Source: Acidimicrobiaceae bacterium (lineage in GTDB: Bacteria; Actinomycetota; Acidimicrobiia; Acidimicrobiales; Ilumatobacteraceae). From it: a stretch of DNA of 64,000 nucleotides. Below the pieces are notes generated by a model. The model was not told the origin of the DNA, did not search any database, and saw only the letters and a list, made by a program, of their open reading frames with translations. Positions 2,911 through 4,697 of the stretch are shown in pieces. The DNA lies in contig CANFUE010000013.1 of assembly GCA_947450115.1 (NCBI GenBank), positions 1 through 64,000 of the forward strand. Direction: 5' to 3'. The translations under genes and the position numbers were made by a program. How positions within the stretch are numbered: position 1 is the first letter of the stretch; every line of letters begins with the position of its first letter.

Positions 2911-3150
2911 ATGTCGTTAAACGCAAAATTGCTGGAGATTCTGGCTTGCCCAGAAGACAAAGGTCCGCTCTACTATGTGGAATCAGAGTCCTTGTTATAC
3001 AACAGCCGTTTGCAGCGTGTATACGACGTCAAAGAGGGCATCCCCGTGATGCTCATCTCTGAAGCGCACACCGTTGACGCTGGCGAACATGCTCGCATCA
3101 TGGCAAAAATCACGGCAGAAAACATTCAGCCCACCTTCACTGCGCACTAG
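2911..3150 (+). CDS. Trm112 family small protein
   Basis: A 79-residue protein with the Trm112 pattern: an N-terminal [14 protein letters not shown] block, a central [11 protein letters not shown] block and a GIPVML block. Eukaryotic and archaeal Trm112 activates methyltransferases; the bacterial relatives (YcaR-like) are small stand-alone proteins of uncertain partner. Only one cysteine of the usual zinc set is present (CPED; the second position is Asp), so zinc binding is doubtful. It lies just upstream of adenosylhomocysteinase, which clears the by-product of methyltransferases. The functional link is suggestive only. Confidence 0.85.
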
Positions 3151-3239
3151 TATTTCCTCGTCGGGCTGAAAGACCGGAGCCAGCAGGCCCCAGCCCGGGT
3201 ACTTTCCCTTCATATCGACAGTTCCCGAAAGGCTCTTCC
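3151..3239 (+). promoter_or_regulatory. Structured 5' leader of ahcY, candidate pseudoknot regulatory RNA
   Basis: Between Trm112 and ahcY is an 89-base GC-rich leader. A perfect 7-bp stem pairs 3162-3168 (CGGGCTG) with 3191-3197 (CAGCCCG). Inside its loop, GAGCC at 3177-3181 can pair with GGCTC at 3231-3235, extendable by one G-U pair. That second helix would overlap the likely Shine-Dalgarno AAAGG at 3228-3232, just ahead of the ATG at 3240. A pseudoknot closing over the ribosome site is typical of translational riboswitches, and ahcY genes are known SAH-riboswitch targets. The sequence does not obviously fit the SAH or SAM-IV consensus I know, so the class is open. Confidence 0.5.
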
Positions 3240-4697
3240 ATGTCTACAAATAGCACCTTTGCGCAACGCGGAGATTTCCGTGTTGCAGATCTTGCGCTTG
3301 CCCCATTTGGCCGCAAAGAAATCCATCTTGCCGAACATGAAATGCCAGGTCTTCGCGCATTGCGTAAAGAGTTCGGGCCAACGAAGCCATTGAAGGGTTG
3401 CCGTATTTCTGGTTCATTACATATGACCATTCAGACCGCAGTTCTCATTGAAACGCTCGTTGAGTTAGGCGCAGAAGTGCGTTGGGCAAGTTGCAATATT
3501 TTCTCTACTCAAGACCACGCAGCAGCTGCAGTAGTTGTTGGCCCAAATGGCACAGCCGAAAACCCACAGGGTGTTCCTTGTTATGCGTGGAAAGGTGAAA
3601 CTCTTGAAGAGTATTGGTGGTGCACCGATCAGATGATGACTTGGCCCGATGGTGATGGGCCAAACATGATTCTCGACGATGGTGGCGATGCAACAATGCT
3701 CGTACACAAAGGCGTGGAGTTCGAAAAATCAGGAGTTGTTCCCGACCCCACCACCGCATCAAACCCAGAGTTCGCCATTGTGCTTGGCTTGTTGCAACGC
3801 AGCTTGAAGTCGGAGCCACAGAAGTGGACCACCATGGCCAAAGGCATTAAGGGCGTTACTGAAGAAACAACTACTGGTGTGAAGCGTCTGTACAAAATGT
3901 CGGAAAATAAAGAACTTTTGTTCCCTGCCATCAACGTGAACGACAGTGTAACCAAGAGTAAATTCGACAACCTTTATGGCTGCCGCCACTCACTCATCGA
4001 TGCCATCAACCGTGCTACCGACGTCATGATTGCCGGAAAGCTTGCAGTGGTGTGTGGATATGGCGACGTAGGTAAGGGTTGTGCGCAAAGTTTGCGCGGT
4101 CAAGGTGCACGTGTCATCGTCACGGAAATTGACCCCATCAACGCATTGCAAGCAGCAATGGAAGGTTACGAAGTGAATACTCTTGAATCTGTTGTTGACC
4201 AGGCAGATATTTTTGTTACTGCAACTGGCAACGAGGCCATTATCGATGTGTCACATATGTCGAAAATGAAGCACAATGCCATTGTGTGCAATATTGGCCA
4301 CTTCGATAACGAAATCGACATGGCTGGTTTGGCACGTAGCGGTGCAACACGTGATGAATTAAAAGCCGGTACAGACCTGTGGTCATTCCCCGATGGTCAT
4401 GCTGTCATTGTGTTGGCAGAAGGCCGTTTAGTGAACTTGGGTTGCGCAACAGGACACCCAAGTTTCGTGATGAGTTGTTCGTTCACCAACCAAGTCATTG
4501 CCCAAATGGAGCTGTTTAATCACACCGCAAAGTATCCACTTGGTGTGTATGTGCTGCCAAAGGTTCTCGATGAGAAAGTTGCCTCTTTGCATCTCGACGC
4601 ACTCGGTGTGGTGCTCACACAAATGAACGATGTTCAGGCCGAATACTTAGGTATTAACCCATCGGGCCCATTCAAGCCCGAGAACTACCGCTACTAA
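3240..4697 (+). CDS. ahcY: Adenosylhomocysteinase
   Basis: Cytoplasmic NAD-dependent hydrolase that splits S-adenosylhomocysteine into adenosine and homocysteine, closing the activated methyl cycle. The 485-residue protein shows the Rossmann motif [10 protein letters not shown], the conserved NATG-type segment written here as TATGNEAII, and the C-terminal KPENYRY that contributes to the cofactor site of the partner subunit. The length matches actinobacterial SahH proteins, which carry an insertion relative to short bacterial forms. It is preceded by a structured leader and followed at once by a convergent gene. Confidence 0.97.

Follow-up and report, generated by a model that had tools for sequence, protein, structure and literature searches.

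Results

A two-helix RNA element in the ahcY leader

Is the leader of ahcY in an Acidimicrobiaceae bacterium a ligand-responsive RNA and, if so, of which class? The window analysed here is a stretch of 64,000 nucleotides (contig CANFUE010000013.1, forward strand). The gene behind the leader was correctly recognized as ahcY, as its product scores 625 bits against TIGR00936 (cut-off 498). The original prediction had proposed a perfect 7-bp stem whose loop sequence, GAGCC, forms a pseudoknot with GGCTC beside the start codon. All segments involved lie exactly where they had been placed, i.e. CGGGCTG at 3162-3168, CAGCCCG at 3191-3197, GAGCC at 3177-3181, GGCTC at 3231-3235 and ATG at 3240. GAGCC and GGCTC are indeed complementary, but GAGCC is not a free loop; it belongs to the 5′ strand of a second helix, P2.

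Window positions 3162-3197 form a compact two-helix RNA of 36 nt. The structure comprises a 7-bp helix (P1), a loop of 6-12 nt on the 5′ side only, the 5-bp P2 and a tetraloop; in P2, a single base is usually bulged, following the second position of the 5′ strand. In the window, P2 pairs GCC (3179-3181) with GGC (3186-3188) and GG (3176-3177) with CC (3189-3190) around AGCA (3182-3185). The features of the locus are as follows.

3148-3153, plus strand: −10-like box TAGTAT, ending 8 nt before P1; predicted transcription start at about 3160
3162-3168, plus strand: P1 5′ strand, CGGGCUG; covarying helix
3169-3175, plus strand: asymmetric internal loop, AAAGACC, with conserved G3172 and A3173 (118 distinct sequences)
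3176-3181, plus strand: P2 5′ strand, GG-A-GCC with bulged A3178; covarying helix; includes the predicted GAGCC
3182-3185, plus strand: tetraloop AGCA; G3183 invariant (118/118)
3186-3190, plus strand: P2 3′ strand, GGC-CC; covarying helix
3191-3197, plus strand: P1 3′ strand, CAGCCCG; covarying helix
3198-3239, plus strand: spacer with the ribosome-site region (GAAAGG 3227-3232, GGCTC 3231-3235); pairing with GGAGCC possible as an alternative to P2
3240-4697, plus strand: ahcY, adenosylhomocysteinase, 485 aa (TIGR00936, 625 bits, cut-off 498)

A small open reading frame at 2911-3150, which we take to be Trm112/UPF0434-like, lies directly 5′ of the element, and its stop codon overlaps the TAGTAT box.

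Both helices are maintained by compensatory changes

We gathered ahcY leaders from 80 genome-contig loci and 100 related genomes and aligned them at the start codon; a match to the window AhcY protein was found in 95 of 100 related genomes. In this line-up, an element with the consensus CGGGCUGA(N3-6)GA(N1-4)GGUGCCAG(N2)GGCCCCRGCCCG was common to most leaders of the same family and to many of the same order. Two models were built, R1 from 37 hand-picked examples and R2 from 60 aligned hits. Altogether, 118 distinct versions of the element were collected, from 21 Acidimicrobiales-like families 5′ of ahcY and from two more families 5′ of an adenosine deaminase gene (add).

On alignments A1, A3 and A5, the covariation score and the count of cells in which both partners differ were each higher than in any of the 500 shuffles, and slid controls were all far lower; A1 was made with MAFFT, without fitting to the structure. 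For the eight inner pairs of the 118 distinct sequences, we counted 878 Watson-Crick cells, 64 wobbles and 2 mismatches, and compensatory changes were numerous; such cells are not independent events, yet the changes recur across many families. The middle pair of P2, for example, is C-G in 66, U-A in 42 and U-G in 10 sequences. Conservation was lower at the outermost pairs of P1 (52 mismatches) and P2 (26 mismatches), which indicates loose helix ends. The 7-bp stem thus reappears, with compensatory changes, in 118 distinct leaders, far beyond chance. Covariation across related ahcY leaders had been named as a test of both predicted helices; P1 passes it, whereas the proposed GAGCC:GGCTC helix is not conserved.

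Unpaired positions are likewise constrained. The tetraloop has the form (A/U)GNN, its second base being G in 118/118 and its first base A in 99 and U in 15, and the internal loop contains an almost invariant G, with A as the next base in most cases. The stems hold invariant C-G and G-C pairs, while the bulged base of P2 is A, U or C in relatives, or absent. We regard it as practically certain that this is a real, widely conserved, cis-regulatory RNA element whose structure is under selection, as had been suspected for this leader.

Divergent forms were seen at a few loci. Apparent variants directly 5′ of ahcY at L107 and L109, missed by the models, have an internal loop lengthened by 12-20 nt, in which an additional short stem is possible (CCGC...GCGG, CCCCGACCGGGG). 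Divergent relatives 5′ of ahcY in genus g5 of the window's family (L002, L089 and L091) read AUGGGCC...GUGCCAGYUGGCCAGGGCYCAU; here the top of P1, invariant elsewhere, is altered on both strands.

The element precedes ahcY and add in one bacterial class

Searches with R2 gave hits in 120/397 genomes of the order and in 65/395 of the class, nearly always one per genome. In a sample of 396 genomes of the phylum (E 0.01), all hits fell inside the class and none outside. We fetched the DNA behind most hits for gene context. All examined hits of the order search with E up to about 0.0015 were closely followed by ahcY or an adenosine deaminase gene. According to the genome tables, the ahcY-linked copies belong to 21 families. 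Two contigs titled Bifidobacterium breve (L001 and L007) carry an ahcY that is 96% and 86% identical, respectively, to the Acidimicrobiia gene, and their organism labels look wrong. In some relatives that do not have the element (e.g. L004, L005 and L098), ahcY seemingly almost abuts the upstream reading frame.

The add-linked copies come from family f59 (L206, L208 and L227 of genus g151, and L241 of g169) and family f45 (L301, g491). The f59 enzyme clears the equivalog threshold for adenosine deaminase (TIGR01430, 268 bits). Its f45 counterpart shares about 42% identity with it; the element thus serves two distant types of adenosine deaminase. No R2 match was found at the ahcY loci fetched from f59, and genome G943 of f45 has only divergent ahcY relatives (43-44% identity). 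By eye, the L227 and L301 leaders are also alike outside the motif (CGGCGAAGG...TTTCGACGCG before the ribosome site), which may be a second conserved segment; given this similarity, the leader sequences would permit one shared origin of the add copies.

Some hits were not followed by ahcY or add (e.g. L204, L207, L209, L213, L216, L218 and L220-L226). These, and likewise L232, L233, L305, L308, L318, L321 and L323, were taken to be chance matches because their scores were weak and they had no downstream gene in common.

The element probably opens the mRNA

A TANNNT box ends 5-20 nt 5′ of P1 in 97/118 distinct leaders, mostly at 7-13 nt; shuffled sequences would give 9.8 such leaders, and a control window placed further upstream gave 15. 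No −35 consensus was found at the right distance from this −10-like box. Given a box just 5′ of P1, the mRNA probably starts within a few bases of P1, so that the element would form its very 5′ end. The element lies between 21 and 193 nt from the start codon, with a median of 56 (118 leaders; some start codons were assigned by a rule and could be wrong).

A possible pairing with the ribosome site would compete with P2

In the window, GGAGCC can pair with GGCUC(C) of the ribosome-site region as an alternative to P2. As GAGCC is part of P2, this is not a pseudoknot built on the hairpin. The pairing is possible in most members of the window's genus (GGAGCC with GGCUCC or GGUUCC), but it is broken by a mismatch in one of them, G001 (L160; GGUGCC versus GGUUCC), and it was not seen outside the genus. 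Leaders of other lineages have their own complementarity between the ribosome site and P2 or its loop, i.e. AGCGGACC:GGUCCGCU in L011 and GACGAC:GUCGUC in family f42.

Across the 118 leaders, only 3 of 2000 permutations gave a complementarity of the element to its own ribosome site as good as the observed one, a figure inflated by relatedness. With 64 thinned representatives, p was 0.02-0.05 for the P1 5′ strand, the core and P2, and 0.32 for the P1 3′ strand; the overall signal in the thinned data is weak (p about 0.03). Native and chimeric leaders did not differ significantly in how accessible the ribosome site was predicted to be when the hairpin was present or left out (p 0.12). No terminator was found in the window's leader, and no conserved expression platform was found across leaders. 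Since the ribosome-site pairings exclude P2, a ligand that stabilizes P2 would free the ribosome site and act as an ON switch.

Energy folding of positions 3140-3260 returned both states at near-equal energy; the MFE fold (−27.7 kcal/mol) contains the alternative GGAGCC:GGCUC pairing, the centroid fold (−26.0) the P1/P2 hairpin. The leader folds no better than shuffled sequences (MFE −27.7 versus −29.3 ± 3.7, z 0.43). Because of this, and because the MFE and centroid folds differ, single-sequence folding is uninformative here, and the case rests on the comparative evidence.

The element matches no Rfam family

Covariance models of all 4227 families of Rfam 15 gave no credible match, either in the window (at the gathering score and with E up to 10) or in 20 diverse relatives (E up to 1). 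In the original prediction, the leader could not be fitted to a known SAH, SAM-I, SAM-II or SAM-IV consensus, which agrees with this result; these three SAM classes and the other SAM classes gave no covariance-model match in the window or the 20 relatives. The SAH riboswitch (RF01057) is close in kind, as it is likewise located in the 5′ leader of ahcY and likely follows the same kind of logic; in Proteobacteria, its regulon has ahcY as the core member (PMC4239095). It is longer, however, with 78 model positions compared with 37 here, and its model found nothing in the window leader (E up to 10) or the 20 relatives (E up to 1). No RF01057 was found in 81 related genomes either, which proves nothing alone, since the control genomes were silent too.

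The SAM/SAH riboswitch (RF01727) is also a small RNA near a methyl-cycle gene and resembles the architecture drawn in the original prediction. Members of this class fold into an H-type pseudoknot involving the ribosome site (PMC7367207) and are found in Rhodobacterales before metK (PMC7367207, PMC4239095). In contrast, the window element lacks a conserved pseudoknot, and neither it nor the 20 relatives match the RF01727 model. The SAM-Chlorobi motif (RF01724) is a candidate RNA before ahcY and metK operons (PMC2864571), but it is restricted to Chlorobi, another phylum, and its model matched neither the window nor the 20 relatives. In Proteobacteria, ahcY is a core member of SAH-responsive regulons, and the SahR regulon places ahcY under the control of the SAH level (PMC4239095). 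SahR, however, is a protein regulator with a DNA site, whereas wobble pairs and covariation mark the window element as RNA.

We found no earlier description of the motif in the open-licence literature, although one may exist in supplementary data. Rfam thus does not list the element, and we do not assign it to the SAH, SAM/SAH or SAM riboswitches, although its mode of action may resemble that of a SAH riboswitch.

Discussion

A candidate riboswitch for SAH or adenosine

AhcY converts SAH to adenosine and homocysteine, with the equilibrium on the SAH side; adenosine deaminase removes adenosine and pulls this reaction forward. The gene context of ahcY and adenosine deaminase therefore ties the element to the SAH/adenosine step and points to one of these two metabolites, so that the original prediction was right about the pathway. 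Judged from sequence comparison, the element most probably represents a new riboswitch class in Acidimicrobiia, for SAH or adenosine, a reading that we hold with some reserve. The 36-40 nt structure that probably opens the ahcY mRNA would then be the aptamer of a small, previously undescribed class, in which ligand recognition would probably rest on the conserved G-A of the internal loop and on the (A/U)GNN loop. SAH, which AhcY consumes, is the most likely ligand, and the main alternative is adenosine, the product of AhcY and substrate of adenosine deaminase. We favour SAH, as roughly twice as probable, because a SAH sensor would sensibly raise both enzymes, while an adenosine sensor would make sense for raising adenosine deaminase but is harder to rationalize for AhcY. 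Ligand binding would most likely stabilize P1/P2 and leave the downstream ribosome site free, such that accumulating SAH or adenosine would yield more AhcY, or, in a few lineages, more adenosine deaminase.

A riboswitch agrees with the covarying, conserved RNA in the 5′ leader, its association with the functionally related ahcY and add, essentially one copy per genome, invariant unpaired bases, the promoter-like box just upstream, and the finding of no terminator in the window's leader. Against it stand the restriction to just two gene families, the perhaps single origin of the add leaders and the lack of a conserved platform. In addition, an RNA of 36 nt that has a single asymmetric loop would be a small aptamer for selective SAH binding, though small riboswitches exist.

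The same covariation would be left if a regulatory RNA-binding protein controlled the ahcY and add mRNAs through a site at this position, with no metabolite aptamer involved. The hairpin, with its single bulge, its asymmetric loop and a tetraloop of the AGNN type, has a size and shape that suit protein recognition, but we know of no candidate protein, and autogenous binding by AhcY would leave the add leaders unexplained; we consider such a site unlikely, if worth keeping in mind. Less probable still is a 5′-terminal hairpin that merely stabilizes the mRNA or sets basal expression without a ligand. The short distance of a few bases to the predicted start of the transcript, the variable distance to the start codon (21-193 nt) and the lack of a conserved platform would fit this. 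A plain hairpin, however, has no need of an invariant tetraloop G, a near-invariant internal-loop G or invariant C-G/G-C pairs, nor need it be confined to ahcY and add.

The pseudoknot of the original prediction, in which loop GAGCC pairs with GGCTC at the ribosome site and SAH or SAM turns translation off in the manner of the SAM/SAH class, draws on a complementarity that is present in the window and possible in most of the genus. As a general model it is largely refuted, given that the covarying P2 uses up GAGCC and that the pairing is broken in G001 and not seen outside the genus; moreover, from a metabolic viewpoint it would be surprising if SAH turned ahcY off. We therefore rate it as very improbable. 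The inverted-repeat look of the element and its position at the transcription start could also suggest a DNA operator for a transcription factor. However, 64 of 66 non-Watson-Crick cells of the inner pairs are G-U wobbles rather than mismatches, which speaks for RNA of the element strand, and the spacing varies inside the element (internal loop of 6-12 nt) while the stem changes are compensatory, so that an operator is hardly credible.

Implications for methyl-cycle control

Within the favoured riboswitch reading, a compact natural class that senses adenosine itself, with a regulon of ahcY and adenosine deaminase, is a bold and rather doubtful proposal. To our knowledge, no natural adenosine riboswitch has been described. 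A less extreme version would be a second SAH riboswitch class, architecturally unrelated to the first. As far as literature searches show, methyl-cycle control in this bacterial class is undescribed. If SAH is bound, the element would sense it with another architecture than the known class and at half the length; if adenosine is bound, the ligand would, as far as we know, be new to natural riboswitches. With either ligand, Acidimicrobiia would offer an RNA that is short, strongly conserved and linked to two defined gene contexts.
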